From: Spirochaetales bacterium
Lineage (GTDB): Bacteria; Spirochaetota; Spirochaetia; SZUA-6; JAFGRV01
Reading direction: 5' to 3'
Assembly: GCA_016930085.1 (NCBI GenBank)
Contig: JAFGHO010000025.1
Coordinates: 1 to 64,000 of the forward strand
Length of the DNA stretch: 64,000 nucleotides
Part shown: positions 31,560 to 51,255 of the stretch, piece after piece
How the letters are laid out: the number at the start of each line of letters is the position of its first letter
Numbering within the stretch: position 1 is the stretch's first letter
The notes under the pieces: model-generated
Seen by the model: only the letters and a program-made list of their open reading frames with translations
The model's database searches: none
Told to the model about the DNA's origin: nothing
Translations under genes and position numbers: made by a program

Positions 31560-33833
31560 CTATTTACCACTTGTCAACTCTTCTGCAATTAATTCCGCCT
31601 GCTTTAATACTGTTTCCGTCGCAAGCATTTGCATGTCCGGCGGATAGCCGTATTGCCTGAGAACCCTTTTAACAATTACTTTCAATTTCGCTTTCACGCT
31701 TTCCTTTATGGACCAGTCGATTGATGCGTTTTCCTTGACCTTTTCATAAAGGACAACCGCAAGTTCACGGAGTTTTTCCTGTTCCATGACCTGCCGCGCG
31801 CTTTCGTTATTCGCAATGGCGGTATAGAAAGCGTATTCATAATCGGAAAGACCCATTTCCTGAGGTTCTTTGTCCATTTCATGAATTTCCCTGGATAATT
31901 CAATGAGGTCTTCTATGACTTCCGCGGCAGTAAGAATTTTGTTGTGATATTTCCTGATGGAATTTTCGAGCATTTCCATCAAGGTTTTGCCTTGAATCAG
32001 GTTCTTCTTTGTCCGGGATTTTATTTCATCATTGAGAAGCTTTTTCAGCACTTCAAGGGCGATGTTTTTGTGCTCCATATTCTTCACTTCAAGGAGAAAG
32101 TCTTCCGACAATATGGAAATATCCGGTTTTTGTATTCCGGCGGTATCAAAGACATCGATTACCTTTTCCGTAACAAGCGCTTTGTCAACGACCTGCCTTA
32201 TGGCTGTTCCGACTTCTTCATCCGTTCTGCCTTCACCCGTTATGTCGAACTTGACGAGCCGTGATTTCACCGCCTGAAAGAACGCCACTTCATCTTTCAC
32301 GTCCATTGCCTTTTCATGGGGTATTGCTATGGACAATGCTTTGGATAAAGCGGTAACTTCGTCAATAAAACGTTTTCTTCCGTTTTCGAGACCGAGTATG
32401 TGTTCCTCGGCGGAAAGTATGAGTACTAGTTTTTTGCCGGTGACATTCCCGTTTTCGTCTTTGTCGTCGATCGTTTTCGCCTTGAAACCGTACTGTGTCC
32501 TGTGGGCTTCGTCCGCAATGACGACGATATTGGTTCTGTCCGACAGTTTTTCATACACGTTTCCTTCTTCCGGCTGGAACTTCTGGATCGTGGTGAAAAC
32601 CACACCCCCGGAGGCGACTTTCAGTAATTCCTTCAATTGCTCCCTGTTCCCGGCCTGTACCGGTTCCTGGCGGAGCAATTGCCTGGACGAGGCAAAGGTG
32701 TCGAAAAGCTGGTCGTCGAGGTCGTTGCGGTCGGTGATGACGAGAATGGTGGGATTATCCATGGCAAGAACGATCTTTCCGGCATAAAAAACCATGGACA
32801 GGGATTTCCCCGACCCCTGGGTATGCCAGACGACGCCGCCTTTTTTGTCTCCCGCGGGCTGTGATTTCACGCCGGGTACGCCGTAGCTTTCCGGCGACTC
32901 CTTAACCATGGAGACTCCGGCACGAACGGCCGTTTTTTCACCATAGCCTGCCGCACGGAGCGTCGATTCGACCGCCCTGTTTACCGCATAGTATTGATGA
33001 TAGGCGGCCAGTTTTTTAACGCTCCGGACGGTGATGACGCCCGTTTCCCGGTCCTCTTTTCCGGATTTTTCAAAAACAATGAAATGCCGGATAAGGTCGA
33101 GCAGCGTTTTTTTATCGAGCATGCCGCGAATCAATGTTTCAAGCTGCCCTATGAGGGGAGAAGCCTCGATGTTGCCGTCTGCGGTTTTCCATGCCATGAA
33201 ACGGTTGTACCCGGAGGAAATCGTTCCGGCCTTTGCTTCGAGCCCGTCGGAGACAATTAAAAAGCCGTTATAGGCGAACAGGGAGGGGATCGACCGTATA
33301 TAGGTTTGCAATTGCTTGAATGCCGAATGAACCGTTACGTTTTCATCCGCGGGATTTTTAAGTTCCATAACGACAAGGGGCAGGCCGTTGACGAATAATA
33401 CCACATCGGGGCGTTTGTTCACATGGTTTTCGATCACGGTGTATTGATTCAGGACGATAAAATCATTGTTTTCAGGATCGTTAAAGTCGATAAGCCATAC
33501 AAGCTCGCCCCGGCTGCTTCCGTCTTTCCGACAGGCGACCTTGACGCCTTCGGTCAGCATCCGGTGAAAGCTTTCGTTATCGGCAATCAGTTCGGGAGAG
33601 TTGAGACGTTGTGTTTGTTTTACCGCATCCTCCCTCGCGTCCGCCGGTATTGCCGGGTTGATGCGGGAAACCGCTTTTTTTATTCTTTCAGGCAGAAGGA
33701 CATCTTCAAAGGAGGCGCGCTCCGGCGCTTCACCGTCCGGGGCGATATCGGGACCGTATATATATTGGTAACCGTGTTTTTCGAGGAGTTCGACGGCAAA
33801 GGTTTCGATGGCGGATTCGGTGATTCTGGTCAT
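31560..33833 (-). CDS. hsdR: Type I restriction subunit R, internally deleted
   Basis: 757 residues against about 1000 in this family. Present: PD-(D/E)xK nuclease (D143, E157, K159 in V-M-E-L-K), Walker A H-T-Q-G-S-G-K-S (337-344), D-E-A-H (441-444) and the C-terminal helical region from L-I-L-S-A-E-E-H. Missing: everything from after residue about 468 (near base 32430), i.e. the G-F-T-G-T-P motif and the second RecA domain with motifs IV-VI. The reading frame is kept across the join. DNA translocation, and hence restriction, should be lost. The gene lies far from hsdM and hsdS, with Gabija-like and IrrE/PIN genes between. No Shine-Dalgarno precedes the ATG. Confidence 0.85.
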   Translation of the reverse strand: MTRITESAIETFAVELLEKHGYQYIYGPDIAPDGEAPERASFEDVLLPERIKKAVSRINPAIPADAREDAVKQTQRLNSPELIADNESFHRMLTEGVKVACRKDGSSRGELVWLIDFNDPENNDFIVLNQYTVIENHVNKRPDVVLFVNGLPLVVMELKNPADENVTVHSAFKQLQTYIRSIPSLFAYNGFLIVSDGLEAKAGTISSGYNRFMAWKTADGNIEASPLIGQLETLIRGMLDKKTLLDLIRHFIVFEKSGKEDRETGVITVRSVKKLAAYHQYYAVNRAVESTLRAAGYGEKTAVRAGVSMVKESPESYGVPGVKSQPAGDKKGGVVWHTQGSGKSLSMVFYAGKIVLAMDNPTILVITDRNDLDDQLFDTFASSRQLLRQEPVQAGNREQLKELLKVASGGVVFTTIQKFQPEEGNVYEKLSDRTNIVVIADEAHRTQYGFKAKTIDDKDENGNVTGKKLVLILSAEEHILGLENGRKRFIDEVTALSKALSIAIPHEKAMDVKDEVAFFQAVKSRLVKFDITGEGRTDEEVGTAIRQVVDKALVTEKVIDVFDTAGIQKPDISILSEDFLLEVKNMEHKNIALEVLKKLLNDEIKSRTKKNLIQGKTLMEMLENSIRKYHNKILTAAEVIEDLIELSREIHEMDKEPQEMGLSDYEYAFYTAIANNESARQVMEQEKLRELAVVLYEKVKENASIDWSIKESVKAKLKVIVKRVLRQYGYPPDMQMLATETVLKQAELIAEELTSGK

Positions 33834-36260: not shown

Positions 36261-38135
36261 TCATAACAAAACCACCTCATTTTCAGAAAACCAGCCATTT
36301 TTTAGAACCTGATTCTTCACTGCATCAGAATTCTTTGTATAAGCAACAATCGCAAGACTTTTTTCAGTGCGGCTGCAAGTTACATAAAAAAGTCTTCGTG
36401 TACGATCTATGCTTGTTTCTTTTCCCTCCGATATATTTTTTTTGTCGGTATCAGTTAAAGGTTTTGTGCCGAATAACTTATCATAACTAAACATAAATCC
36501 CCGCGCCTCTTCGTCATCAAGAATCAGAAGTACTCTTGGAAATTCAAGACCTTTGACTCCCTGATGTGTCCCAAACATAGATTTATCTGTGATATATTCA
36601 GAATAGGCAATAATCTGGTCAAAAGAACACTTTAATGCATTATCCCACGCATCAACTGCTTCTTCCTTATCAGTCGCATCGTCCTCATCAAGCCGATTTT
36701 CTGTATATTTACGTTTAAGTGTTTGTGCAAAAACATCGGGTATGGTCAAAAGACCTGACGAATCGATGTTGCTAAGTATATCTAACAATTTCGGCTTCTG
36801 ATTCTCCTTTTTAAATAAATTATAGACACCATTAACAGCAGTATCTGCATTTTTTATTTCATCTAACTGGTTTTTACTTTCGCTCAATATTTTCGAACTT
36901 AAAAGTGGAGAGTGTTTGCGTATTATTTGAGCAACTTTAAACTTGTTATCATCTCTTTTTGCTTGTATCAATGGTATAACTTGTTGTATAAAAAATGATA
37001 CTCCAGTCAAAGTTCCATCCAGCAGTCCGGTTTTATACTTTTCTATTCTATAAAGAGGTTCAAAAAAATCCAGAAAGCCGCCTCTGCGAGCGGCCATATG
37101 ATGTTCAAGTGTCAGAATCTTAACATCAGCATTGGATGAATCCCATCCTGCATCTTTTGTTAGGTTTTGCATTTGTTGCATAATAGATTTTTCTGTTTCC
37201 AGCTTATCAATAGCACCCTTAGTATTGACAATAAACAGCTTAACAAACCCTTCTTCATTAGTATTGGAAGGTTTTTGAATATGGCTATCCACTACTGATC
37301 TAATTTTATTAATAAGTGTGATTATTCTCTTGGGGCACCTATGGTTTATTAGCTTTACAGGTTTAGACCAATCATCGGGCAAGTTATTTCCCAAATCAAT
37401 TTTCCCATCTGTATAAATCCGTTGCATTGTATCACAAAATATTCCAAGCGAAAAATTACACTTATAATTATTTTGAACATTGAAAAATGCTTCCATCAAT
37501 TCCTTTTTAGTGTCCTGGCTTTCATCTATTAAAAGAATGGGGTACTTATTTATTAGTAATTGCATCATCAAATTCTTTTCTGTTAAAAATGTTGCGGTAA
37601 TGCTTATAACCTCGGCATGGTTGAGAGAATCCCTCCCGGTATTTGTTCCATTCGGGTCATAGGAAAATTTTTTAACAGTTTCAATATTATCTAAACGCTT
37701 TCTCTTCGACTCTATCTGTATTGCACGGTCAGAAGCCGCTTTTGTACCCGCACGGCCAGTTCCTTGCTTCGCTTCAAGTTCGCTGATTTCCTTATTTAGA
37801 TTATCTCTCACCCAATTACGAATATCGTTCTGAAATGGCTTAATCAATTCCCATGAAAAACTGTGTATTGTTGAAACAATAAATGTATTGTCAAATTCAA
37901 GCCTGCGTTTGATTTCATCACAGGCAGCGTTTGTGTAAGTGATTACCGCAACTTTCTGTCCACGCAGTGCTAATAATCGTGCTTTGCTTTTTCTAAACTC
38001 TTGTAAAACATTGACTAATGACCGTGTTTTACCAGATCCTGCGCCTGCGAACAGAAAGAAACTTTTTGGAGAATCAAGGTTAAGGCAACTGCTGATCTCT
38101 CTATCGGCATCACTTAGATTACTTACAGGATTCAT
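36261..38135 (-). CDS. UvrD-like helicase, GajB-type
   Basis: 624 residues, superfamily 1A helicase. Walker A A-G-A-G-S-G-K-T (30-37), motif Ia T-Y-T-N-A-A, D-E-S-Q-D (204-208), motif V G-T-H-Q-G-V-K-G-L-E-F, motif VI L-F-Y-V-T-C-S-R. AGGAG precedes the ATG, which overlaps the end of the OLD-nuclease gene by 17 nt. OLD nuclease plus UvrD is the Gabija anti-phage arrangement. This protein is longer than the described GajB (about 494 residues), mainly in the middle. Codon use is AT-richer than in the flanking hsd genes. Confidence 0.88.
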   Translation of the reverse strand: MNPVSNLSDADREISSCLNLDSPKSFFLFAGAGSGKTRSLVNVLQEFRKSKARLLALRGQKVAVITYTNAACDEIKRRLEFDNTFIVSTIHSFSWELIKPFQNDIRNWVRDNLNKEISELEAKQGTGRAGTKAASDRAIQIESKRKRLDNIETVKKFSYDPNGTNTGRDSLNHAEVISITATFLTEKNLMMQLLINKYPILLIDESQDTKKELMEAFFNVQNNYKCNFSLGIFCDTMQRIYTDGKIDLGNNLPDDWSKPVKLINHRCPKRIITLINKIRSVVDSHIQKPSNTNEEGFVKLFIVNTKGAIDKLETEKSIMQQMQNLTKDAGWDSSNADVKILTLEHHMAARRGGFLDFFEPLYRIEKYKTGLLDGTLTGVSFFIQQVIPLIQAKRDDNKFKVAQIIRKHSPLLSSKILSESKNQLDEIKNADTAVNGVYNLFKKENQKPKLLDILSNIDSSGLLTIPDVFAQTLKRKYTENRLDEDDATDKEEAVDAWDNALKCSFDQIIAYSEYITDKSMFGTHQGVKGLEFPRVLLILDDEEARGFMFSYDKLFGTKPLTDTDKKNISEGKETSIDRTRRLFYVTCSRTEKSLAIVAYTKNSDAVKNQVLKNGWFSENEVVLL

Positions 38136-40359
38136 TGCTTTCTCCTGTTATTAAATAATCCAAGTCTTTTTGGCGCAAATTATCTTCCAGCCATTTCAAA
38201 CCTTCTGCAATATACTTTGGTACCTCGATTTCTTTCGGGTCTTTATGAAATAAAAGCTCCAAAGCCATTTCTGCTTTCTTACCACTTTCTAAAGCTTCAA
38301 ACATCTCTTTACATATTTCTGAGATATCGATTTTTGTTAATGCTTGCTTCATCTTATCTAATAAACCTGTTGTAGAATTAATACCTTCTATAAACGCCTT
38401 ATTTGATAAGGTTAAAGAATCCTCGAATGTATAGGGTAGGGCTTCGGTACTATTCAAATTAATAGGCGTTTGGTAGCAGATTCTTACTTTGCCGTTATCT
38501 GATTCTTTATCTGTATCCTTGCATGCATAGAGATCATCCAATGATTCCTTTTTTGGAAGCCATGTTTTTAATGTGTCATTTCCTGTCCTGTAACCTTTAT
38601 TCTTTTCTGGCAAGACCTTCTTTGAGTCGGATTGACCAATAGAATCGATATCGGTAATTACTAATGTATATAATCCAAGTGTTTCAATTAACGGTTTTAA
38701 CCTGTGTGCGTGACTGCCTCCTATTTCAAGGATAGAAATATATCGTGAATCGAGGTTTTGATGTTTATGGCGGATAAAATGAGGCAAGAGCACCCGTTCT
38801 GCTGGTCCTTCCACAAGAATTACCGCATCGGCAAAGAATAGATCACAATGCGTTGTTTTGAGGTACCGTGCGGCGAACCTTGAAGTTTCATCCTGATTTC
38901 CAAAAGTAGTTGATAGATTAATCACACATGCATTCGGTACATCCTTTTTAGCTTGTGAAGGGTTTTTTCTGAAATACCTTAAGCATGAAAAATCAACTTC
39001 ATGCGCAATATGGCTGGAATGTGTGCTTACAATCAACTGCGTATTAAAATTACGCGAAGTCTTTAAATTAGAATGGTTTCGCAGAACTGAAAAGGCTTTT
39101 TTAATAAAAACCTGTTGGACTTGGGCATGCAGATGAGCTTCCGGTTCTTCAATCAGAACAAGGTGTAATGGTTCAATAAATTTACCATCATCTTCTGCAG
39201 ATTTCCTGTATTTACCCACACACATCCATGCATCACGGAACTGGATTAGATTGAATATCATTGAAATGAGATTCTGATATCCCAAGCCGTTATACTTTTC
39301 AGGGAGATGCATGATATTATTAGTGGATTCATCATTTTTGCCGATAACAAAGCGGACGGCTGCATCATGATTGAGCAGGTCAACAGGGTTAACTTTGCTC
39401 GTCAATATCAATGACGGATCACTGAACCCTGGGTAACCCAACCCTTCAAGTTCAGAAATTGCAACCTTAAAGCCATCACGAAGTCTTTCATCAAAAGTGA
39501 TACGTGTGTTTTCAATTGCTTCAAGCACATAGAGATCTTCTATCCCTGGTGAATCTGAAGGATCAAGGTGTTTTTTATAATAACTGCTGAGCTGTGCTGA
39601 TAATTTGTTTCCCTTGTATCCCTCTATACCTTCAAAGCTATTTACATCCGAAAATCCTCTTTGAGCATTGATTGAGTTTATTTTGATCAAACCTTCAAAG
39701 GGATCTTTTTCAAGTTCAGGCAAATCTGCCGGTAATATTTGTGGCTGTGAGATGCCATCTTTTGGATCGCAACATCTTTTCGGATCAATCAAAAAAGACT
39801 TCATCTTAAAATACAAATGCAATTTTTTATCTAAAAAGTCCTGCATTGATGAAGGCCAGATGTTGATTTTTGTCTTTTCCTCATCTTTTGATTTTAGAAG
39901 ATTTTGTGATTCAGTAAAAGCTTGGGAATAGTCTTTATAAAGGTTTTCAACATTTTTCGGTTCAAAACACAGCCGCACTCCGAGTAATCCTCCTTGCCAG
40001 TCTAATGTTGGTATGAGATGACTCACATAATGAATCTGATCTTCATTCACATTCAACCAAACATCGACTGCCGGAAGATATGGTCGCCATTGATCTATGC
40101 TCAAATTTAAAGCTGTTTTATTATCTGTTCTGACCCAGGTATCAGCGATTTTATTAATGACTGCCCAATTAGACAATGTAAAATCTGTTGTTACGATTGA
40201 TTTTCTTTGACCTTTATCAAGAAATAGGATAAGGGCATCCATGGCGGAAGTTTTACCGCTGTTATTTGCACCAACAAAAATGGTTTCTTTATCAGCGAAT
40301 TCCATACGGCAAGATTTTAACTTACGGAAATTCTGGATTTCGATGAATGAAATTTTCAT
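38119..40359 (-). CDS. OLD-family ATPase-nuclease, GajA-type
   Basis: 746 residues from an ATG behind GGAGG; a TTG 7 codons earlier is open. ABC-type ATPase: Walker A G-A-N-N-S-G-K-T (30-37), Walker B V-L-I-E-E-P-E-A-H (401-409), and S-T-H-S-S-H. TOPRIM nuclease: E517 in V-E-G, D570/D572 in I-T-D-I-D. In Gabija the ATPase senses nucleotide depletion and the TOPRIM domain nicks DNA. Larger than typical GajA (about 578 residues); the extra sequence lies between the Walker motifs (about 90-270) and at the C-terminus. It starts 10 nt after hsdS, so it is embedded in the type I operon. Confidence 0.88.
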   Translation of the reverse strand: MKISFIEIQNFRKLKSCRMEFADKETIFVGANNSGKTSAMDALILFLDKGQRKSIVTTDFTLSNWAVINKIADTWVRTDNKTALNLSIDQWRPYLPAVDVWLNVNEDQIHYVSHLIPTLDWQGGLLGVRLCFEPKNVENLYKDYSQAFTESQNLLKSKDEEKTKINIWPSSMQDFLDKKLHLYFKMKSFLIDPKRCCDPKDGISQPQILPADLPELEKDPFEGLIKINSINAQRGFSDVNSFEGIEGYKGNKLSAQLSSYYKKHLDPSDSPGIEDLYVLEAIENTRITFDERLRDGFKVAISELEGLGYPGFSDPSLILTSKVNPVDLLNHDAAVRFVIGKNDESTNNIMHLPEKYNGLGYQNLISMIFNLIQFRDAWMCVGKYRKSAEDDGKFIEPLHLVLIEEPEAHLHAQVQQVFIKKAFSVLRNHSNLKTSRNFNTQLIVSTHSSHIAHEVDFSCLRYFRKNPSQAKKDVPNACVINLSTTFGNQDETSRFAARYLKTTHCDLFFADAVILVEGPAERVLLPHFIRHKHQNLDSRYISILEIGGSHAHRLKPLIETLGLYTLVITDIDSIGQSDSKKVLPEKNKGYRTGNDTLKTWLPKKESLDDLYACKDTDKESDNGKVRICYQTPINLNSTEALPYTFEDSLTLSNKAFIEGINSTTGLLDKMKQALTKIDISEICKEMFEALESGKKAEMALELLFHKDPKEIEVPKYIAEGLKWLEDNLRQKDLDYLITGESNESCK

Positions 40360-40369
40360 AAAGCCTCCA

Positions 40370-41557
40370 TTACGTGACAACCCTCACTTCACCGCACATG
40401 AGCTTTGGCAAGAGGGTGTCCCGGAGTTTTTCGAGAGTGCGGATCTGAAGCTGGTTTTGTTTTAGCTTATTTATAAATATTTCTGCATGTTTGTCGAAAG
40501 TGGTAACCAAATCAATATTAGGTAATTTTATTAGGTATTCTTTCAAGATTCCAGTATTTAAATTATTCTGAACTGAACCATCAGCAATATTATTTAATTC
40601 ATTGAAGATGGTTTTAATAAAGAAAAATAAAAATAACTTAGTAATGCCTTTAAAATCTCTGAATAATAACCAACCGTCATGTATGCATCCTTCAATTTCA
40701 ACAAAATATGGAAATCCACAAGTGGCACTATTTGAAAGAATTAAATCACCAGGAAAAACTTTAACGCTTTTACTTACACCTTCTTCAATAATAAATTCAT
40801 TTGTACTATCGATGAAAAAATTACTACTTCTTGAGCCATCTGCAATCTTAATCCACGGAACTGTTCCATTGTAAATATATTTTATGATAGGTCGAGGTGA
40901 TGAACCACGAGTAATAGTACACAATTCTTCTAGCTTTCTCTCTTCCCACCCCTCATCCGCTTCTTCCACAAACCACTGCCGGAACAGTGCCTCTGCCATG
41001 GCTTCCAGCGTCCTGTTATGGCGGTGCAGAAGGTCGATCTTGTCGTCAAGGCTGGAAAGCACCCCGGCAATGGCCTTTTGTTCGGGGAGAGGGGGGAGGA
41101 GAATAGGAATACTCTCAACTACCTTTCTTTCTGCAATATTTATTTGTACAGAACCGTGTGAAGCTTGAGTTAGAAGTTCAAAGCCTTGTTTTGAAGAAAG
41201 AAAGTAGTATAGATATTTTAATCTGATTTTGCTTACATCTGGGCGAAGAATTAAAAGTGCCTGGCTGATGATACCCTTTGGGTCTTCATCTTTTATTATT
41301 GAAATTTTACCTACCGTACCTGAACAGCTAATTATTAGGTCATTTGTTCTTACTTGGAATCTTGAAAGTTCTTCAAATTTTTGTTTATTTATAAAAAAAC
41401 GGAAAGTTCGATCATTGTTTATTGCATTCTTTTGTTCATATACAGGTATTCCATGAGTCTGCATTTCTCCACGTTTTAAAGAAGACCCGAAAGGACCACG
41501 AATATAACCTTTATCACCTAATACATGTTTTAATGTACATTCCTTCCACTCACCTAT
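40370..41557 (-). CDS. hsdS: Type I specificity subunit S, start codon lost or ATA
   Basis: Two target-recognition domains separated by conserved helices (L-P-P-L-P-E-Q-K-A-I-A near the centre, L-R-D-T-L-L-P-K-L at the end). The first ATG is at 41464, but homologous HsdS sequence (G-E-W-K-E-C-T-L...G-Y-I-R-G-P-F-G-S-S-L-K-R-G) continues without a stop to an ATA codon at 41557. That codon directly follows the TGA of the preceding gene. So either ATA is used, or the original ATG mutated and the protein lost its first 31 residues. It determines DNA recognition for HsdM/HsdR. Confidence 0.8.
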   Translation of the reverse strand: MGEWKECTLKHVLGDKGYIRGPFGSSLKRGEMQTHGIPVYEQKNAINNDRTFRFFINKQKFEELSRFQVRTNDLIISCSGTVGKISIIKDEDPKGIISQALLILRPDVSKIRLKYLYYFLSSKQGFELLTQASHGSVQINIAERKVVESIPILLPPLPEQKAIAGVLSSLDDKIDLLHRHNRTLEAMAEALFRQWFVEEADEGWEERKLEELCTITRGSSPRPIIKYIYNGTVPWIKIADGSRSSNFFIDSTNEFIIEEGVSKSVKVFPGDLILSNSATCGFPYFVEIEGCIHDGWLLFRDFKGITKLFLFFFIKTIFNELNNIADGSVQNNLNTGILKEYLIKLPNIDLVTTFDKHAEIFINKLKQNQLQIRTLEKLRDTLLPKLMCGEVRVVT

Positions 41558-41812
41558 TCAATCCCACCCGTTATCCCTGAAAATCACGACGACCTCAATC
41601 GGCTTTTGACCGGGTATTTCACCCACATCATATTCACCCTCGTATTCGGACATCGCCTCTTCATCGCGATAAACGGTTCTGATCTCGGGAACCAGAATAT
41701 TATGGAATCCTTTCCGTTTACCGTGAGTCACGACCCGCATGTCCGGTGGAAATTGTTTCAGAAACTCAATCAATTCATTGACAGTTATTTTTTCAGGATA
41801 ATTATCAATCAT
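41558..41812 (-). CDS. Small hypothetical protein in the hsd operon
   Basis: 84 residues, ATG 6 nt after GGAGG, overlapping the end of the DUF1016 gene by 8 nt. K-I-T-V-N-E-L-I-E-F-L-K-Q-F-P-P-D-M-R-V...E-V-V-V-I resembles short proteins found in phage and mobile regions whose role is unknown. Tight packing shows it belongs to the hsdM-hsdS transcript. Confidence 0.6.
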   Translation of the reverse strand: MIDNYPEKITVNELIEFLKQFPPDMRVVTHGKRKGFHNILVPEIRTVYRDEEAMSEYEGEYDVGEIPGQKPIEVVVIFRDNGWD

Positions 41813-42833
41813 GCATTCCCTCCAGCTCTGCTTCAATCTCCTCGATGCTCGGAATAGAAGGCTTATAATGATCGGGGAGATGTTGCGTTATCTGGTATTC
41901 ACTAACACCTATCGGCTTGTTTATATCTTTGAGTGCGTATTCCACCACTGTTTTGTTTTTGGATTTGCAGATAAGAATACCGATTGTCGGTTTATCCTGT
42001 TCGGTCCTGAGAATCCCGTCTACTGCGGACACATAGAAATTCAGCTTTCCGGTAAATTCTGGTTTGAATTTTACAGTTTTCAATTCTACAACAACATAGC
42101 AGTGAAGGCGGATATGGTAGAAAAGGAGATCGATGAAATAATCATCACCAGAAACCGCCAGTTTGTATTGCCTGCCTATAAAGGAAAAACCTGTTCCTAG
42201 TTCCAGCAGAAATTTGGTCACCTGGTTCACAAGGGCATCTTCCAGTTCCTTTTCATCGTGTTTTTCCCTGATTGACAGAAAATCAAATATATAAGGGTCT
42301 TTCAGCGTTTGATTAGCCAGATCAGACTGCGGTTTGGGTAGAACCATCTGAAAATTCGTACATGCTTTTCCTTCTCTGAAAAATAACCTGCCTTCTATTT
42401 GATGGGCAAGAACCGCTCTTGACCAATTATTCTCAATGGTTTTTTTCACATAAAATAATGCTTCTTCCAGTGTAACTGCTTTGCTGATAATAACCAGGTT
42501 GTGTCCCCATGGAATTTGGGCAACAGCTTGTTGCCCAATTGGTGAATCCGACCAGAATAAATACCATTGTCTCATATATTTTAAATTTCGAAGTGAAAAA
42601 CCTTTCATATCGGGAAAAGTCTTTTGTAAATCTTTACTCAATCGTTCTAAAAATGCATCACCCCATGCGCTTTTATTTTGTATTTCTACAATCCTTACGG
42701 CCATGTCCCAGTATAAACGTAGAAGTTCCTGATTAACGCTAACGGCGGCTTTTATCTGTGCACTATGCACGCGGTTTTTTATTTCTTCTATGAAATCAAC
42801 ATATTCATTGTCTTTTTTAATAATTCCACTCAT
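41805..42833 (-). CDS. DUF1016/YhcG-family PD-(D/E)xK nuclease-like protein
   Basis: 342 residues. N-terminal DUF1016_N helical region (R-L-Y-W-D-M-A, then L-S-K-D-L, F-S-x-R-N-L-K-Y-M-R). C-terminal nuclease core Y-F-I-D-L-L-F-Y-H...Y-V-V-V-E-L-K (about 232-255) with the D...E-x-K residues. Frequently found within type I restriction operons, as here, overlapping the end of hsdM by 4 nt. It may be an accessory nuclease; the role is not established. Confidence 0.88.
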   Translation of the reverse strand: MSGIIKKDNEYVDFIEEIKNRVHSAQIKAAVSVNQELLRLYWDMAVRIVEIQNKSAWGDAFLERLSKDLQKTFPDMKGFSLRNLKYMRQWYLFWSDSPIGQQAVAQIPWGHNLVIISKAVTLEEALFYVKKTIENNWSRAVLAHQIEGRLFFREGKACTNFQMVLPKPQSDLANQTLKDPYIFDFLSIREKHDEKELEDALVNQVTKFLLELGTGFSFIGRQYKLAVSGDDYFIDLLFYHIRLHCYVVVELKTVKFKPEFTGKLNFYVSAVDGILRTEQDKPTIGILICKSKNKTVVEYALKDINKPIGVSEYQITQHLPDHYKPSIPSIEEIEAELEGMHD

Positions 42834-43102
42834 AGCTTCACCTTTTTCAAATTTTCTATAATCGCCTTGTTCAGCCGCTCCTCTTCATTCAACTGCGCCT
42901 CGAACTCGACTTTCAAGCCGGTAAAGCGTTCCTTGAAATCAAAATCATCCTCTTCATCGGGGAGGCCCACGTATCTGCCCGGCGTCAGCACGTAATCGAG
43001 TTCTTTCACCCGTTCGATACTCGCGGAGTTGCAATAACCTTTTATATCTTCGTATGTTCCTTTCTCTTTTCGCCATTCGTGATAGGTCGATGCTATTTTC
43101 AT
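42830..43102 (-). pseudogene. hsdM: hsdM C-terminal part (separate frame)
   Basis: 90 codons carrying the normal C-terminus of HsdM: I-A-S-T-Y-H-E-W-R, then Y-V-L-T-P-G-R-Y-V-G, then a coiled end. It is in another frame from the main hsdM ORF and overlaps its stop as ATGA. Upstream of this ATG the frame still reads P-H-E-D-I, matching HsdM, so a short indel split the gene. Reinitiation at ATGA could still make the fragment. Confidence 0.75.
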
Positions 43103-44358
43103 GATATCCTCATGCGGCGGTTGATCAAATGACCTTCGTTACGGGCGTCGATGAACAATATTTCTTCCCTCCTGTTCCGGTAGCCGCCGTTTGCCTTGTT
43201 CCGTGACAAAAACCAGAGACAGGCCGGTATCTGGGTATTCAAAAAGAGCTTTGCCGGAAGATTGACGATACAGTCGACAAGACGCGCTTCGATAAACGCC
43301 TTGCGGATATCGCCTTCGCCCGAGCTTTTAGAGGTGAGGGAGCCTTTTGCCAGAACAAAACCGGCAATACCGCCCGGGCTCAAATGATAATGGAAGTGCT
43401 GTATCCATGCGTAGTTGGCGTTGCCGGACGGGGGAGCGCCGTATTTCCACCTGCCGTCTTTGCGGAGCATGTCGCCAGACCAGTCGCTGTCATTGAAGGG
43501 GGGATTTGCGATGACGACATCGGCCTTCAGGTCTTTGTGCGCGTCGTTCAGGAACGAACCTTCGTTGTTCCATTTGACCTGCGAGCTGTCGATGCCGCGG
43601 ATTGCCAGGTTCATTTTGCACAAACGCCAGGTCGTCTGGTTGCTTTCCTGTCCGTAAATCGATATGTCATTGACGTTGCCCCGGTGTCCGGCCACGAACT
43701 GTTCCGACTGCACGAACATGCCGCCGGAACCGCAGCAGGGGTCGAAGACACGGCCTTTATATGGTTCGAGCATTTCCACGAGAAGTTCGACGACACTGCG
43801 GGGCGTGTAGAACTGTCCCCCCTTTTTCCCTTCCGCAAGGGCGAATTCACCAAGGAAATATTCGAATACATGGCCCAGAACATCCGCGCTCCGGGCTTTT
43901 GCGTCGCCGAACGCGATATTCCCGATAAGGTCGATCAGCCCGCCGAGGTTCGCCGGATCCAGATTGCCGCGGGCGAATACTTTAGGAAGCACGTCTTTCA
44001 GCGAGGGGTTGTCCTTTTCGATGGCGTCCATGGCGTTATCCACTTCTTTGCCGATGCCGGGCAGTTTTGCCTTTGATTGCAGGTATGACCACCGGGCGAT
44101 TTCGGGTACGAAGAATATATTCTCTGCCTTGTATTCGTCTTTGTCCTCCGGGTCCGCCCCGGCATATTCGCCCTTTCCGCTTTTCAATTTCGAGTGAAGG
44201 TTTTCGAATGCATCCGAAATATATTTCAGGAATATCAAACCCAGAACGACATGCTTGTATTCAGCCGCGTCAATGTTCTTTCTAAGCTTGTCGGCGGATT
44301 TCCAGAGCTGTTTTTCGATTGGTTCGCTGCTGTTTTTGTTTTCCCTGGTTTTTGCCAT
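43099..44358 (-). CDS. hsdM: Type I modification subunit M, C-terminally cut by frameshift
   Basis: 419 residues against about 510 expected. N-terminal HsdM_N helical domain (about 10-130); methylase with motif [11 protein letters not shown] and motif IV A-N-P-P-F-N-D (N6-adenine type). It ends abruptly after [11 protein letters not shown]; the remaining 90 residues are in the next ORF. GGAG precedes the ATG. First gene of the hsd transcript. Methylation may be impaired because the missing part contacts HsdS. Confidence 0.88.
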
Positions 44359-44431
44359 GATTTCTCCGTTCATTATCTTTCATTTACCGCAGGTAACACG
44401 GACGTTATGTGCTTATTAAAGGCCAGAATAA

Positions 44432-44899
44432 TTACCGTAAAACATTCCCAGCTGCCTGTTGTATTAGTTTAAATGCGATATTTTTTTTTGTCAACCAATC
44501 CTGTGACGTGTTTTCGTCATCTTGTTGCTCCAATAAAAAATCGCGGATGTTTTTATGGGTGATACCGTTTTGACTCCGGTTTATTTTATCCACTGAAAGG
44601 ATGTATTTGGGGTAGTTGTCCGGGATCGTTTCCTGCACGCCGAATTCCCTTTCCATTGTTTTCTCACCGGCAAGAGGATACGTTACCTGCACATATAATG
44701 TATCGCCGCTTTTTGGGGCGCAAAAATCGACTTCCGCGTTTTTTACCTTGCCCACCGTCGCCTCGTAACCGCGCCTCAAAAGTTCCATATACACGATATT
44801 TTTCATGACCTGATTGACGTCCCGCTGGTTATTGCCGTAAAGCGCCTCCCGTATGCCGTGATCTGAGAGGCAGATTTTTTCCTGTGTCGCAAGCAGCAC
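44432..44899 (-). pseudogene. C-terminal remnant of an AAA/DUF4143 ATPase
   Basis: 155 codons match only the DUF4143 tail of AAA_14-type ATPases: I-C-L-S-D-H-G-I-R-E-A, then N-I-V-Y-M-E-L-L-R-R-G-Y, V-D-F, and Y-V-Q-V-T-Y with a nuclease-like strand pattern. The Walker motifs and about 250 N-terminal residues are missing; the coding sequence breaks off just before the unrelated ATP-grasp gene, marking the island edge. Confidence 0.7.
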
Positions 44900-44951
44900 T
44901 TTCCCCTGTCACTATGAAAAACTTCTCCGATATGCTACAATTGTCGTACTT

Positions 44952-45839
44952 ATGGAAAAAAAGCTGCTTATCCTGACACAGAACAAAAACCGCACCGCAT
45001 CCCTTTCCCGGTACCTTGCCGGGAAGGGATACGGGGTGACCGTCATCGAACGGGAAAAAATCCTTCATGACGGCCGTCTCGCCGTGAGTGAGGATACCGT
45101 CCGGTACGGCGATACCGATATCCTCAGCGGCACCCTCGCCGCCTTCATCCCGGATTTGGGATACATGTGGCCCCAGCCCGCGCTTGAGCCCACGGAAGCC
45201 GAATGGCTCGCGTGCCGGAAGAACCTCGACGAGTATCTCAGGAACGAACGTGAAAGCGCTTCACTCTGGTTCAGTCTTCTCGAGATCGTCAATGACGCGG
45301 TTCCCCTCTGCGTCAACCCGCAGCGCGCCTATGAGGCTGCCGTGTTCAAACCGTGGGCCTTCGAACTACTCACCGAAGCCGGTGTTCCTGTTGCCCCGTC
45401 TCTTGCGGGGAACGATCCGGAGCGGATCGCCTCGTTTCTGAAAGCCCATGACGGGTGTTTTCTCTCGCTTCCCCTCGCGGGCATCGGGGCTGCCGAGTGG
45501 ATGGATGAGAATGAAATAAGGAAACATCCATTGAACGAAACCCCGCTTTTTCTTCAGGCGTTGACCGGTACAAAGGAAATACAGCTTGTCGCGGCCGGCG
45601 GAAAGCAGGTCTGCCTCGAACCTTCCCCGCTTGAAGTGCCGGAGAAGCTTCCGGAAAAGATTACCGTCCTCCAGAAGACCCTCGCCATGCCCCTTGCCGG
45701 GATCACCTTGAGAGAGGGGGAGGGTGGGATGGTTATTGGCGATTTCGAGCCTTCGCCCGACCTGGAGGCGCTTCCCGAAGATATCAGGGGAAAGGTGTTT
45801 GCCGCTTTATGCTGCCTTCTCAAGGATAAAGACCGATGA
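44952..45839 (+). CDS. Degenerate ATP-grasp-like protein
   Basis: 295 residues. The overall plan of RimK-like ATP-grasp proteins is visible: N-terminal Rossmann-like part, Y-E-A-A-V-F-K-P-W-A-F-E-L-L-T-E-A-G-V-P-V helix, L-F-L-Q-A-L-T-G hinge. However, the lysine of the K-P strand is replaced (F-L-S-L-P-L) and the metal-binding D/E-x-N near the end is not seen. It may be an inactive partner of the next two proteins. First gene of a four-gene operon; it overlaps the next by 4 nt. No clear Shine-Dalgarno. Confidence 0.6.
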   Translation: MEKKLLILTQNKNRTASLSRYLAGKGYGVTVIEREKILHDGRLAVSEDTVRYGDTDILSGTLAAFIPDLGYMWPQPALEPTEAEWLACRKNLDEYLRNERESASLWFSLLEIVNDAVPLCVNPQRAYEAAVFKPWAFELLTEAGVPVAPSLAGNDPERIASFLKAHDGCFLSLPLAGIGAAEWMDENEIRKHPLNETPLFLQALTGTKEIQLVAAGGKQVCLEPSPLEVPEKLPEKITVLQKTLAMPLAGITLREGEGGMVIGDFEPSPDLEALPEDIRGKVFAALCCLLKDKDR

Positions 45840-46885
45840 TCGCCGTGATCGGTCCGCCGGGGGACCAGGAAGTCGACGCCGTCTATTCGCGGCTGCGGAA
45901 CAGGGGAGCTGATGCGTGCATCGTCGATCTTTCCCGTTTTCCGGGTGACGCCGCGCTCACGATCGGGCGGGAATATACCGGACTGAACGGTATCGATATC
46001 GCGGGGATCGAATCGGCTTACTTGAGAAGACGGGGCGCCACCGCCCCGTGGTATATCGATTACGAAAAGAGTACCACGGTCGAATCCGAAGACGAGTGGC
46101 GGGGGCTGTACCGGGATTATATCGGTTTTATAGAAAACGAGAAAAAACACCTCGCTGTCAAAACGGCATTCATCAACCTCATCGCGCAAAAAGGCGTCCT
46201 CGTCAATCCGATCCGCCGGAACGACCTTCACCGCATGAAAACCTACCTGTACCGGTTTCTCAAGACCGGGGGGCAAAGGCTGCCCGCGTTCATGGCGGGA
46301 TCGGACAAAATGACGCTCAAGGACTTCGCGGAGAAGGCGTTCGCTGAAGATGACGGGGTGGTGTCGAAGCCCCTTGCCGGGATCTACAAGACGCATCTCT
46401 GGAATACGGATATGTGGAAAACCCACGCGTGGAACAGACGGGGTGCATTGTACCAGCGGTACATCAGGGGGGATACCATACGGTGTTATGTGCTCGGAGG
46501 AAAGCTCATCGCCGCGGCCCGCATCGTCCACGGCGGGACCGTCGATTCTTCAATGAGTCAGACAGGGATCGAGGTGATCGCCCTTCCCGATGCGGCACGG
46601 CGTATCGCCGAATCCGCGGCGGAATCGCTTGAGCTTTCATTTTGCGGCATGGATTTGATGAGACACGGTGAGACCGGCGAGTTTTTTCTCATCGACTGCA
46701 ATATGTCCCCGATGTTCGTCAATTTTGCCCGGCTGAGCGGTATCGACATTCCCGCCCTCCTGGCCGGGTTTCTCATCGAACAGTCGGGGAAAAAGCGGAA
46801 GAAAAAGACCCTTTCCCTCCTCGACGAGGCAAAGGACATCCTTGCCCGCGATCCCGAAATCAGAAAGCGGTTGTTCGGGAGATAA
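45836..46885 (+). CDS. ATP-grasp protein (RimK-like) 1
   Basis: 349 residues. N-terminal pre-ATP-grasp domain (about 1-120), lysine in V-S-K-P-L-A-G, Y-Q-R-Y-I-R-G hinge, R-C-Y-V-L-G-G-K-L-I-A-A, M-D-L and metal-binding D-C-N-M-S-P (about 286-291). It should join an amine or thiol to a carboxylate using ATP, as RimK and graspetide ligases do. A basic Lys-rich tail follows (about 315-325). Coupled by ATGA to the degenerate paralogue and followed after 5 nt by a second intact one. Confidence 0.8.
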   Translation: MIAVIGPPGDQEVDAVYSRLRNRGADACIVDLSRFPGDAALTIGREYTGLNGIDIAGIESAYLRRRGATAPWYIDYEKSTTVESEDEWRGLYRDYIGFIENEKKHLAVKTAFINLIAQKGVLVNPIRRNDLHRMKTYLYRFLKTGGQRLPAFMAGSDKMTLKDFAEKAFAEDDGVVSKPLAGIYKTHLWNTDMWKTHAWNRRGALYQRYIRGDTIRCYVLGGKLIAAARIVHGGTVDSSMSQTGIEVIALPDAARRIAESAAESLELSFCGMDLMRHGETGEFFLIDCNMSPMFVNFARLSGIDIPALLAGFLIEQSGKKRKKKTLSLLDEAKDILARDPEIRKRLFGR

Positions 46886-46890
46886 AGCGG

Positions 46891-47844
46891 GTGTACGCAA
46901 TAGGAATCGTCGGCAGCAAAATGGATCCCCATGTCATACAGCTCGCGGAAGAAAGCCGCAGACAGGGGATCGAGCCCCATGTCATCGACTTCACGCACTT
47001 TCCCGCCTACAACCTGCTTACCGTTTCGAAGCCGCGGGGATACGACGATATCGGGATACATGACCCCGTTCCGGTCGAAAAACTGAATCTCCTCCTGGTG
47101 AGGAACTTCCGGGCGCACGGCAGGGAACCGGTCGCCACACCCGACGGGATCGAACGGTGGTCGCGCGGGGTGGGAGACAGCCTCGGCCTTCAGCAGGCCT
47201 TTGTCAGGGCGGCGGGAAGACATATTCCGGTCGTCAATCATCCCGACGCGTCGAGGTTCCACGGACTCAAACCGTATCAGTATCATTTCCTTCATTCGCA
47301 CGGTATCCGGGTGCCCGCCACACTCGTGACCGCTGACCGCGGGACTGTCTCGTCGTTTATCGAACGCTTCGGGAACAGGGTCGTCGCGAAACCGTGCTCA
47401 AGCGGCGCCGAGGTCGTCATGGCGGACAATGAGTTTTTCGAACGAAACGAAGCGGTTCTCGGAAAGCGGCCGTTTATGTACCAGCAGTTCGTCAGCGGCA
47501 GAAGTTTCAGGACATACCTTCTCGGCGGGCGGATCGTTTCTTCCGGAGAAATTTTCTTCGACAGACGGTTCGTGGACTGGCGGGAGCGGGTGCGGAAGAC
47601 AACGGCGTGTACCCTGGAAACGGCAGCCGCGGACCAGGTCGAAAAGGCGGTACGGCTTTTGGGGCTCGCCTATTGTGCGGTGGATCTGGAATATGACGGG
47701 CAGACGGGAGCGTACTACCTGCTTGATTTTAACCCTTCCGCGCTCTTTACCGGATGGAGTAAACTTGTTACAATTAATATGGCGGAACGGATAATCCGTT
47801 ACGTCGCGGGGGTTCTTGGGAACGGAAACAGGTTGTGGCTGTAA
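46891..47844 (+). CDS. ATP-grasp protein (RimK-like) 2
   Basis: 317 residues from a GTG. I-G-I-V-G-S-K-M-D-P-H start, lysine in V-V-A-K-P-C-S-S-G-A, Y-Q-Q-F-V-S-G hinge, R-T-Y-L-L-G-G-R-I, V-D-L-E-Y and metal-binding L-D-F-N-P-S-A. All ATP-grasp residues appear intact. Middle of the operon, 27 nt before the radical SAM gene. Confidence 0.8.
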   Translation: MYAIGIVGSKMDPHVIQLAEESRRQGIEPHVIDFTHFPAYNLLTVSKPRGYDDIGIHDPVPVEKLNLLLVRNFRAHGREPVATPDGIERWSRGVGDSLGLQQAFVRAAGRHIPVVNHPDASRFHGLKPYQYHFLHSHGIRVPATLVTADRGTVSSFIERFGNRVVAKPCSSGAEVVMADNEFFERNEAVLGKRPFMYQQFVSGRSFRTYLLGGRIVSSGEIFFDRRFVDWRERVRKTTACTLETAAADQVEKAVRLLGLAYCAVDLEYDGQTGAYYLLDFNPSALFTGWSKLVTINMAERIIRYVAGVLGNGNRLWL

Positions 47845-47871
47845 CGATTATGTGTAAGAAGGGGGACGATC

Positions 47872-49056
47872 ATGTCACATAAACGGCTTGCGAATTTGCT
47901 CAACGAGGCAAAATCGGTCTTCAGGGAAATAAAGGAAGAAAAGGCGGAAGAGATTATCCGGCAGAAACTCGAAGAAGCGGCGAAAGATCCCATGGCCCCC
48001 TATAAAAGCCTGCCGTGGTATCCCCGTTACGTCGTCTGGGAACTCACCCTCGCCTGCAACATGAGGTGCGCCCACTGCGGTTCGACCGCGGGCGTGCGGC
48101 GGGAGGACGAACTCACCCTCGACCAGATGTACCGGTGCGCCGACGAACTGGGGGAGCTTTCGTGCGAGCGCCTCACCCTGCTCGGGGGGGAACCCCTCAT
48201 CCACCCGCACTGGCCGGAGGTCACGAAACGCCTGCAGCAAAACAAGATTCGCGTCAACGTGATTACCAATGGCTGGACCCTGACGGACGAACGCGTCTGC
48301 GACAAACTGAAAGAGACGGGGCTCACGATCGTCGGGATAAGCGTCGACGGGATGAAACGGTCGCACGACAAACTGCGGCGGGAAGGATCCTTTGAGAGAA
48401 TCGTCAGGGGGATGGACCTTCTGAAGGAACGCGGTGTGTCCGTTGCCGTCTGTACCGTTATCACATCGGACTCGATCAGGGACCTGGACGGGCTTTACGA
48501 TCTCCTCATCGACAAGGGGGTCAAGGTCTGGCAGATTCAGATCGCCTCCCCCCTCGGACGGCTCGAAAAGGACGACCCGATTCTCATCAAACCGATGCAG
48601 ATAAAGACGCTTTACGATTTTTTTTACAAAAAACGCGCGCTGAAAGGACCCATTCACATCGATCTCGCGGACGATGTCGGCTACTATCCGCCGTGGGAGG
48701 AGGGGTATCTGAGAAACACGAGAAACAATGGCCTCCTGTGGATGGGGTGCCACGCGGGGATCCAGGTTCTCGGCATCGATTCGAACGGAAACATCAAGGG
48801 CTGCCAGTCGCTTCCTTCCACACCCGAATACCTGGAGGGCAACATAAAGGAAATCTCCCTCGTCACTCTCTGGAAAAACCCGGACGGCTTTTCGTACAAC
48901 AGAAAGTTCTCGATGAAACAGCTTTCCGGCTATTGCGCCGAATGCACATACGGTCCCATCTGCAAGGCGGGGTGCAGTTCGTGCGCGATCGCCTTTACCG
49001 GTAATATCGGGGACAACCCGATGTGCATCCACCGCGCGCTTCAGGAAGCGCGTTGA
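47872..49056 (+). CDS. Radical SAM/SPASM protein
   Basis: 394 residues, ATG behind GGGGG. Helical N-terminal extension (about 1-45), radical SAM cluster C62-x3-C66-x2-C69 in L-A-C-N-M-R-C-A-H-C-G, G-G-E-P (near 105), and a C-terminal SPASM domain with at least seven cysteines (G-C-H-A-G, G-C-Q-S-L, C-A-E-C, C-K-A-G-C-S-S-C, M-C-I-H-R) for auxiliary iron-sulphur clusters. SPASM enzymes typically modify peptides. Clustered with three ATP-grasp-type proteins, it points to a peptide-modification or peptide-ligation pathway; no precursor gene is obvious. Confidence 0.88.
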   Translation: MSHKRLANLLNEAKSVFREIKEEKAEEIIRQKLEEAAKDPMAPYKSLPWYPRYVVWELTLACNMRCAHCGSTAGVRREDELTLDQMYRCADELGELSCERLTLLGGEPLIHPHWPEVTKRLQQNKIRVNVITNGWTLTDERVCDKLKETGLTIVGISVDGMKRSHDKLRREGSFERIVRGMDLLKERGVSVAVCTVITSDSIRDLDGLYDLLIDKGVKVWQIQIASPLGRLEKDDPILIKPMQIKTLYDFFYKKRALKGPIHIDLADDVGYYPPWEEGYLRNTRNNGLLWMGCHAGIQVLGIDSNGNIKGCQSLPSTPEYLEGNIKEISLVTLWKNPDGFSYNRKFSMKQLSGYCAECTYGPICKAGCSSCAIAFTGNIGDNPMCIHRALQEAR

Positions 49057-49272
49057 CCCGCCGGCACCTTGCGGCCGTCCCGAAATAACGGTATACGGAA
49101 GGCGTTTTTTTTGTCCAAGCGGAGGGGGCGCCGGAGGAAACATACGAGAGCATAATCTATGAGAAGAAAAAATATAAAGGAAATTGATTGAAAGTTTGAT
49201 GTAAAAAAGTGAAGAAATAATAATTGCTAAAATTGTCCGGAAGTGATATATTTTAAATGGAGGAGTTATCCC

Positions 49273-49419
49273 ATGGGAGAAAAAACGCTAAATGATATTA
49301 AAAAGGAAATTCGCCGTTACGGTACGATGGCGGCTTCGACCGAAAAAGACGCGACTGATTCATTATATAAGGCCGGGATTTGTGATAAACAAGGAAATTT
49401 GAAAGCCCCTTATAAATAA
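49273..49419 (+). CDS. 48-residue small protein before an ART-like gene
   Basis: M-G-E-K-T-L-N-D-I-K-K-E-I-R-R-Y-G, then A-S-T-E-K-D-A, L-Y-K-A-G-I-C, ending basic. GAGGAG sits 8 nt before the ATG. It ends 9 nt before the ART-like gene, so the two are co-transcribed. It could be a small antitoxin or immunity partner. A precursor peptide for the radical SAM operon is less likely, because base composition changes sharply between the two. Confidence 0.55.
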   Translation: MGEKTLNDIKKEIRRYGTMAASTEKDATDSLYKAGICDKQGNLKAPYK

Positions 49420-49428
49420 AAGAAATAT

Positions 49429-50043
49429 ATGTATTCTCATAAATACAATCTTATTATTGGATTTCATGGATGTGATGAAACAATAAGGGATAACGTCGTA
49501 AAAGGTCAAGTTTGCCTGGACAAAAGTCAAAATGATTATGATTGGCTCGGACATGGAATTTATTTCTGGGAAAACGATGAAGATCGTGCCTATGAGTGGG
49601 CAAAATTTTTACATGAAAATCCTCGAAAAAATAAACCAAAAATAAGAAAACCTTCCGTAATTGGGGCTGTAATTGATTTGGGTGTTTGTCTTGATTTAAT
49701 GAATACAAGAAATCTGGAATTATTGAAATTAAGTTATCAAGAATTAAAAAAAGTCATGCATAAAGCAAATAAACCACTACCGGAAAATTTTAAAACACTT
49801 AAGAATAATAAGGATTTATTACTGAGAAAACTTGATTGTGCTGTCATTGAATTTATGCATTCTGCAATTAGCGAAAAATACAATTATGACTCTGTAAGAG
49901 GTACTTTCTGGGAAGGAGAAGATTTATATCCGAACGCCGGTTTTAAAGAGAGAAACCATATTCAAATATGTATTAGAAATCCGAACTGCATAAAAGGTTT
50001 TTTTATTCCACGTAATAAGGATAATAAATATTCTCTGCCATGA
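49429..50043 (+). CDS. ADP-ribosyltransferase-like protein (DUF3990-like)
   Basis: 204 residues, AT-rich. An ART-fold pattern is visible: histidine in I-I-G-F-H-G-C (about 9-15), tyrosine in L-G-H-G-I-Y-F-W-E-N (about 38-47) followed by A-Y-E-W-A, and a late glutamate in F-K-E-R-N-H-I-Q-I (about 178-186). This H-Y-E-like arrangement is found in PARP-like toxins. It probably transfers ADP-ribose to an unknown target, with the 48-aa protein upstream as partner. Inference from motifs; no signal peptide. Confidence 0.6.
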   Translation: MYSHKYNLIIGFHGCDETIRDNVVKGQVCLDKSQNDYDWLGHGIYFWENDEDRAYEWAKFLHENPRKNKPKIRKPSVIGAVIDLGVCLDLMNTRNLELLKLSYQELKKVMHKANKPLPENFKTLKNNKDLLLRKLDCAVIEFMHSAISEKYNYDSVRGTFWEGEDLYPNAGFKERNHIQICIRNPNCIKGFFIPRNKDNKYSLP

Positions 50044-50151
50044 AAAAGACAGTTGGTTTTATGTTAACGGTTTATGGATTATTTATATACATTTGGATTG
50101 AATAAAAATTGACTAAAATATAAAGACTATATATAGTTAAAATAATTCAAT

Positions 50152-51255
50152 ATGGTACTTAGACGAGAAATATTAGAGTTTAAAGATTATTCAATAGACA
50201 CACCCAAGGAAGATAAAATAATTTCAGCTACACTTTTAGTCTTGCCATTTCATTTATGTACAGGTGAATATTTTTTCTTTAAAGACCCTGAAAATTCGTT
50301 TTACGCACTATGTTTATATAATGAAATCTATTTCCCTGAAGGAACGCTGGAAGAGGATACTTCACCACAGGATATTTTTACAGAAAAAGCATATACAAGA
50401 GTTCTACTTATTAATATAAAGCCTGATTTAAAAACGGAAGAATTTGAAGCTATAACAAATAAAGATATACAAGGAGCAGGTAAAGGAAGTGTTAAAAATC
50501 AAGTATTGGATTTACTTAATGAGTTTATTCTTTCATATAGTATGCTTCGTACAGGACCAATAATTACAGCTGGACAAAGACAGCCAATCCATAAACCAAA
50601 TAGTGAAGATTATATGAATTCACATATAACAGAATTCTTAATAATTATACCAAAAAAACATGAATTATCAAAAGCTGAAATTATGGTAATATTAAATAAA
50701 GCAAAATTATATCCTATAAGGCGTAATGCTAAAGTAATTGGAGATATCATCGATTTAAGTGAAATGAAATTGAATATAATAAATGATTGTATATTAAAAT
50801 TGAGACGACATGTATTTTATGAATTTTATATGATGGGTAAAGCAGCTATGCTTGAACAGAATTATATTGTAGCAATTGTACTCGCATGCGCTGCTTTGGA
50901 AGGTGCTCTTGGAACATTACTAAATATTTTCATAGATGATAAATTAAAAGATTACAATGACCCAAAACATGAAATATTGAATAATCTACTGCGGGAACAA
51001 GGTCTTCATACACTTATCAAGTTAACACCTTATCTGGTTTTAGAAAAAGAAGAGCGACCTTCAAATGAGGATATAAAATTATGTATTAAAGGAATTGAAA
51101 TAAGAAATGATATCATGCATGCAAAAAAGCGTAAAGCTAACGATAAAATACGGACATACGATAACAGAAAAATGAGAGAAGGATATAATGGTATAATGAA
51201 AGTATATAATTTTTTTGTAATGGCCATAGAGAAAGATGAGGAAAACAAAACATAA
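50152..51255 (+). CDS. Hypothetical protein with HEPN-like C-terminus
   Basis: 367 residues, strongly AT-rich compared with flanking genes, suggesting acquisition. The C-terminal third (about 225-360) is helical: A-A-M-L-E-Q-N-Y-I-V-A-I-V-L-A-C-A-A-L-E and R-N-D-I-M-H, the latter matching the R-x4-6-H motif of HEPN RNases. The N-terminal part is unrecognised. It may be a defence or toxin protein. Confidence 0.55.
   Translation: MVLRREILEFKDYSIDTPKEDKIISATLLVLPFHLCTGEYFFFKDPENSFYALCLYNEIYFPEGTLEEDTSPQDIFTEKAYTRVLLINIKPDLKTEEFEAITNKDIQGAGKGSVKNQVLDLLNEFILSYSMLRTGPIITAGQRQPIHKPNSEDYMNSHITEFLIIIPKKHELSKAEIMVILNKAKLYPIRRNAKVIGDIIDLSEMKLNIINDCILKLRRHVFYEFYMMGKAAMLEQNYIVAIVLACAALEGALGTLLNIFIDDKLKDYNDPKHEILNNLLREQGLHTLIKLTPYLVLEKEERPSNEDIKLCIKGIEIRNDIMHAKKRKANDKIRTYDNRKMREGYNGIMKVYNFFVMAIEKDEENKT

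Follow-up and report, generated by a model that had tools for sequence, protein, structure and literature searches.

A putative graspetide-type gene cluster, apparently split in two, that brings together three ATP-grasp proteins and two radical SAM enzymes in Spirochaetales

The plesiocin core has the form TTxxxxEE, with a four-residue gap between its Thr-Thr and Glu-Glu pairs, and we know of no secondary modification of a graspetide that has been shown to come from a radical SAM enzyme. In graspetide cores, nucleophiles precede acids (PMC7823629). Plesiocin has several hairpin repeats with two ester links each, formed by adjacent crosslinks (PMC12291112). Both plesiocin and the microviridins are potent serine protease inhibitors, and few secondary modifications of graspetides are known (PMC13097080). 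Among radical SAM systems, PlpXY excises tyramine at XYG, converting X to an alpha-keto-beta-amino residue, with MYG and LYG as its natural sites (PMC10533398), and PapB tolerates Cys-Xn-Asp motifs with n of 0–6 (PMC9413430).

We compared with these systems an operon found in the window, the 64,000-nt stretch of a Spirochaetales genome that was analyzed here (contig JAFGHO010000025.1, assembly GCA_016930085.1). An ORF check placed four tightly spaced genes on the plus strand at 44952–49056. The first, g1 (44952..45839), encodes a degenerate PsnB-like ATP-grasp protein of 295 aa and overlaps by 4 nt with g2 (45836..46885), which encodes a PsnB-like ATP-grasp ligase of 349 aa. After a gap of 5 nt comes g3 (46891..47844; GTG start), for another such ligase of 317 aa, and 27 nt further on is rSAM1 (47872..49056), for a radical SAM/SPASM peptide maturase of 394 aa. 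The close succession of four genes described in an initial annotation of this DNA was thereby confirmed. A promoter-like site with an extended -10 (44914..44941, plus strand; ATGAAA-N16-TACAAT, TG before the -10) has its predicted start point just a few bases 5' of the g1 ATG; it is weak, matching the consensus at nine of 12 positions, and the consensus scan found five sites in the region against 2.3 expected. We consider it probable that the operon encodes enzymes that tailor a RiPP of graspetide type, the gene cluster for which is split in the window genome.

Among 60 related genomes, g1 was present in G003 alone, which belongs to the same family and a second genus. The G003 locus (L012) is a 12,218-bp contig of a Spirochaetales MAG (JAFGWI010000120.1), on which genes for a TPR protein, a second radical SAM/SPASM enzyme (rSAM2), a lipid A-type acyltransferase, and an ABC exporter are followed in the same direction by g1, g2, g3, and rSAM1, with a 4-nt overlap between the exporter gene and g1. 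On the opposite strand, beyond rSAM1, are two short ORFs (92 and 87 aa), another of 63 aa, and the gene of an Rce1-like (CPBP) protease. Identity between the window proteins and their G003 orthologues was 29% for g1, 49% for g2, 47% for g3, and 67% for rSAM1. Conservation across two genera shows that the four genes are not together by chance. The 92- and 87-aa ORFs contain the repeats TTYYAVGEED and TT[KR]YAIGEE. The hunt for a small conserved ORF in related genomes, which the initial annotation had suggested, gave a clear positive, with repeat precursors adjoining the operon.

In Pfam, the products of g2 and g3 have RimK-like ATP-grasp domains and that of rSAM1 has radical SAM and SPASM domains, whereas that of g1 matched no domain. 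We assigned g1 to the ATP-grasp proteins because of a profile comparison with g2 (hhalign; 94.5%, E = 7.7e-8, 256 columns) and a weak match to PDB entry 7drm. The best PDB match was the same for all three proteins, 7drm/7drn/7dro/7drp. For 7drm, E values were 2.5e-19 for g2 (4.6e-27 with a profile), 2.6e-28 for g3, and 4.7e-6 for g1, the last over its central part only. This entry, titled just "ATP-grasp domain-containing protein" in the PDB, we take to be PsnB, the macrocyclase of the graspetide plesiocin. The next PDB matches of g3 were other ATP-grasp chains, AMdnB, CdnC, and MvdD-like, which are ligases of the graspetide kind. By these sequence comparisons g1–g3 appear to group with PsnB and away from RimK ligases. 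The NCBIfam models for MptN, LysX, MvdC, MvdD, and cyanophycin scored short of their cut-offs, and the model for the ATP-grasp protein of the GAK system (TIGR04356) reached 15.5 bits, in g3 only, against a cut-off of 300.

Alignment with PsnB bore out the initial picture, in which one ATP-grasp protein is degenerate and the other two are intact: The "KP" Lys and the metal-binding pattern D...D/E-x-N are retained in g2 and g3, and the catalytic residues of g1 are lost. The window g1 has neither the second ATP-site Lys nor at least two of the three metal ligands, and the G003 g1 has lost both Lys residues and all three ligands. An AlphaFold model of g1 was of low confidence (pLDDT 45) and too weak for a fold search. 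We propose that g1 is a noncatalytic partner or a leader-binding subunit.

With a G003 peptide as query, we identified three tandem precursor homologues on another contig of the window genome, C22 (E of about 1e-13 to 1e-15; 2e-28 to 9.5e-47 with a profile), adjoined by a protease gene and a 63-aa gene (57% identical to that of G003). The five precursors (two in G003, three on C22) matched no Pfam family. They carry 13 repeats of the form [x]TT[KRLYI]Y[ASG][IV]GEE[DG], two or three core repeats apiece, with T, T, Y, G, E, and E invariant in all 13. The repeats have the graspetide order, Thr-Thr first and Glu-Glu after, with five residues in between. The variable position X before the Tyr is R (four), K (three), Y (three), L (two), or I (one), and the Tyr is followed by A in nine repeats, S in three, and G in one. 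Variation elsewhere is slight, with I (nine) or V (four) before GEE and D (nine) or G (four) after EE. All five precursors share a helical leader, RK[ED]LK[ED]II..VI, and the segment after it ends in [PT]ACG[VLA][FL][WF]AD. Within this ACGVxWAD segment, Cys-x5-Asp is invariant in the five precursors, which may mark a thioether site or just be part of a recognition sequence. The initial annotation had found no precursor inside the operon. This stands for the operon itself and not for the genome; no substrate was seen because the precursors are encoded on a different contig. These dedicated peptides very probably form the precursor family on which the enzymes act.

About 7 kb from the precursors, C22 also carries the TPR, rSAM2, acyltransferase, and exporter genes in the same order as G003. 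The exporter gene is the last of its block on C22 and g1 is the first in the window, so that both break at the exporter/g1 junction (gene order in L012 versus L024). Composition agrees with C22 and the window contig belonging to one genome, a draft assembly: Tetranucleotide correlation was 0.73–0.83 between C22 stretches and window parts outside the low-GC island that borders the operon. For the 4.1-kb operon itself, the values were 0.63–0.68 against the remainder of the genome, 0.39 against the neighboring island, and 0.18 against G003. Judging from gene content and order, the window operon appears to be one half of a larger cluster, with the other half on C22.

In the pathway that we envisage, the leader would first be bound, perhaps by the degenerate g1 or by the separate TPR protein. 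On the basis of homology and motif, g2 and g3 would use ATP to activate the carboxylates of Glu and link these to both Thr hydroxyls, so that each repeat becomes a plesiocin-like hairpin containing two ester rings. Next, rSAM1 would act on the invariant Tyr, most likely by splicease-like tyramine excision, and the preceding variable residue (K/R/L/Y/I) would become an alpha-keto-beta-amino residue. The PapB-like rSAM2 encoded on C22 may then join Cys to Asp as a thioether in the ACGVxWAD segment, and the Rce1-like protease and the ABC exporter would release the product. This product is likely a multi-headed protease inhibitor in which the variable residue sets specificity. Gene conservation, the homologies, the precursor repeats, and the split of the cluster are observed directly, and the assignment of ligases and precursors is well supported; we infer the radical SAM chemistry and the role as a protease inhibitor. 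In favor of the overall reading we counted the 13 of 13 precursor repeats with the invariant residues, beside the operon in G003 and on C22 here, and the presence in both genomes of genes for the TPR protein, the PapB-like radical SAM enzyme, the acyltransferase, the ABC exporter, the 63-aa protein, and the CPBP protease. Against it we counted the restriction of the system to two genomes, the presence of two intact ligases (g2 and g3) for one repeat type, Gly after Tyr in a single repeat, which relaxes the XYG rule, and the distance of rSAM1 from the cut-offs of known maturase families.

That distance is considerable: The best NCBIfam model for rSAM1, TIGR04103 (nif11-class rSAM maturase 3), scored 255 bits against a cut-off of 725, and TIGR03913 (GDL-motif peptide rSAM) 239 bits against 592. 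A PADLOC match to viperin (74 bits) reflects general radical SAM similarity. The protein has a CxxxCxxC motif and seven SPASM cysteines (C293, C311, C355, C358, C364, C368, and C385) that are invariant in six homologues, in agreement with its first description as a seven-cysteine, peptide-modifying SPASM protein. In our tree, rSAM1 pairs with its G003 orthologue (99%) inside a six-member clade (97% SH-aLRT) that includes four further Spirochaetota proteins, two of them paralogues from the window genome (contigs C61 and C18) and two from G192. A profile of the clade scored above 600 bits at only five loci across 393 Spirochaetota genomes, with the next at 205 bits; four of these five loci and the G003 protein were built into the profile, and the finding is the gap in scores, not the high scores. 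XYG-dense proteins were found near three of the four other clade members. Around outgroup radical SAM genes, none of 28 loci had an XYG-dense ORF within 1.5 kb, an uneven comparison in that two of the clade cases were complete only with wider flanks.

We put a splicease-like action of rSAM1 on the repeat Tyr at just short of an even chance. Removal of the Tyr would leave a ketone on X, which alone among the core residues varies strongly, and would shorten TT-x5-EE to TT-x4-EE, the spacing of plesiocin. The alternative that survives best, plausible though somewhat doubtful, keeps the same graspetide cluster and gives rSAM1 a role other than splicing: a Tyr crosslink, epimerization, another change of the Tyr, or a target at the leader Cys. 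Such a role would suit an enzyme that is under all NCBIfam cut-offs and acts on repeats of which just one in 13 has Gly after the Tyr, given that SPASM enzymes catalyze many reactions and that graspetide loci with SPASM enzymes of unassigned chemistry exist (PMC8939145, branches 2 and 5; PMC13097080, group 14). It sits less well with the XYG-repeat proteins near clade relatives and with the invariance, in every repeat, of the Tyr and of a small residue after it.

Several proteins encoded beside clade members are of interest in themselves. On contig C18 of the window genome, an 80-residue frame (L015, 9529–9768) lies directly before a radical SAM/TPR fusion and is a candidate spliceotide precursor; it contains GG as well as four YG motifs, three in LYGI and one in KYGI. 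Two longer frames in G192, of 231 residues with eight YG (L035, 4183–4875) and 252 residues with 10 YG (L036, 3095–3850), mostly as KYGYP, lie near clade radical SAM genes and are candidate substrates of a splicease-like enzyme acting on larger proteins; a known protease-inhibitor fold was sought in these two with Pfam, and no match was significant. Near the remaining clade member, on contig C61, a 185-aa dockerin-like protein with a Pro/Thr-rich linker is encoded just before a radical SAM/TPR fusion (L002, 853–1410) and, with two VYG, makes a weak XYG case.

Relatives of rSAM1 carry a fused C-terminal TPR domain, and the stand-alone TPR protein of the split cluster shows homology to it (41% over 93 aa; 36% over 121 aa), which suggests that this protein partners rSAM1. 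The nearest NCBIfam model for rSAM2 is that of PapB (NF047865), with 273 and 230 bits in the two genomes against a cut-off of 340, and we assign Cys-Asp thioether formation to rSAM2 only tentatively. The 63-aa protein (L012, 2149–2340; L023, 8877–9068) is conserved, is predicted to form three helices, contains VIY[AS]V, and ends in [IL]YG; it is a candidate helper or further precursor. That all these chemistries meet in one hybrid RiPP, in which several ATP-grasp subunits acting as a complex make the ester hairpins, tyramine excision leaves a keto-amide warhead at the presumed specificity position of each repeat, and Cys and Asp form a thioether, seems to us rather unlikely. If true, the product would be a covalent protease inhibitor with several heads, a different one on each repeat, and its genes would lie in two separate parts of the chromosome.

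The operon has a GC content of 57% and lies between low-GC blocks with defense genes on either side, of which the left one combines a type I restriction system with Gabija and other defense-type genes. The joint at 44432–44952 is abrupt, with g1 the first gene past a divergent remnant, the end of an unrelated DUF4143-type gene (44432..44899, minus strand) that begins mid-domain (weak PF13635 match from position 76 of 160). We infer that movement of the low-GC defense island may have caused the split. These surroundings would also fit an operon that is a relic, severed by the incoming island and no longer serving the C22 precursors; with all four reading frames intact, residues conserved with G003, a promoter-like site ahead of g1, and an intact C22 half with its three precursors, we think this improbable.

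Within the left block, gajB and gajA of the Gabija system (36261–40380, minus strand; PADLOC, 838 and 937 bits) are flanked by hsdR (31560–33833) and hsdS (40370–41464). The hsdM gene (42830–44373, minus strand) apparently occupies two ORFs (43099–44373 and 42830–43102), possibly through a frameshift, and next after it is a DUF1016/YhcG nuclease gene (41805–42833). To the right of the operon, a block of 28%–36% GC (49243–51255, plus strand) includes a small ORF, a protein with a weak likeness to PD-T4-9_A (E = 2.5e-6) that by eye resembles an ADP-ribosyltransferase, and a 367-aa protein without a family assignment. No Rfam families were found in the 28–56-kb part of the window, and no tRNA genes in the window.

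The initial annotation had suggested RimK-like ligases acting on a housekeeping protein, tRNA, or cofactor; despite the Pfam RimK matches of g2 and g3, we regard the addition of amino acids to such a substrate as very improbable, with PsnB the closest structure, TIGR00768 (RimK family alpha-L-glutamate ligase) falling short of its 143-bit cut-off at 48 and 55 bits, and dedicated repeat peptides co-occurring in both genomes.

The graspetide-type system appears to be rare. Proteins like g2 were found in the window genome only among 393 sampled genomes of the phylum (a sample in which G003 has no row), and precursors in two of 26 genomes of the order. A pattern-based precursor scan covering 84,980 species genomes, of a kind that divergent relatives can escape, returned a single contig, that of G003, and a scan of genome contigs with g2 alone gave no match. 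We found no co-mention of graspetides and Spirochaet- in the literature searched, and publications on graspetides and spliceases were, going by title and abstract, reviews or accounts of other systems. As the initial annotation had surmised, no named system with exactly this composition was found in the literature, NCBIfam, or PADLOC. The mix of enzymes appears to be previously undescribed, in what sequence comparison suggests is a split, complex variant of the graspetide type.

Three precursors, three ATP-grasp proteins, and two radical SAM enzymes make a defined set for study, in which two or more chemistries have their target residues in a single repeat sequence and the dead subunit g1 offers a way to test partner-dependent graspetide synthesis. 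Precursor mining limited to ligase neighborhoods misses clusters split in this way.

Among described systems, the graspetide loci that include a SPASM enzyme (PMC8939145, branches 2 and 5; PMC13097080, group 14) likewise keep ATP-grasp and SPASM genes together. Branch 5 of PMC8939145 is, by its description, Bacteroides-specific with GG motifs, whereas the precursors here are without GG and have another core. With the ranthipeptides (PapB), the cluster shares an rSAM2 that matches NF047865 best and the Cys-x5-Asp of all five precursors; however, rSAM2 is below the NF047865 cut-off, and there is a single Cys-Asp motif, at the border of leader and core. The likeness to spliceotides, for which PlpX and PlpY were compared by description only, lies in a SPASM radical SAM enzyme, a small residue after the Tyr in every repeat, and clade relatives near XYG-repeat proteins. 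The differences are Gly after Tyr in one of 13 repeats, a precursor that is not visibly of nif11 type, and the added ATP-grasp ligases. With plesiocin (PsnA/PsnB), the cluster has in common homologous ATP-grasp macrocyclases and tandem repeats of Thr-Thr then Glu-Glu, and, we expect, two ester rings per repeat and a likely protease inhibitor as product. Plesiocin has one ATP-grasp protein, whereas here there are three, one of them dead, together with an invariant Tyr and five residues from TT to EE, two radical SAM enzymes, an acyltransferase, a TPR protein, and, in one genome, precursors encoded in trans.
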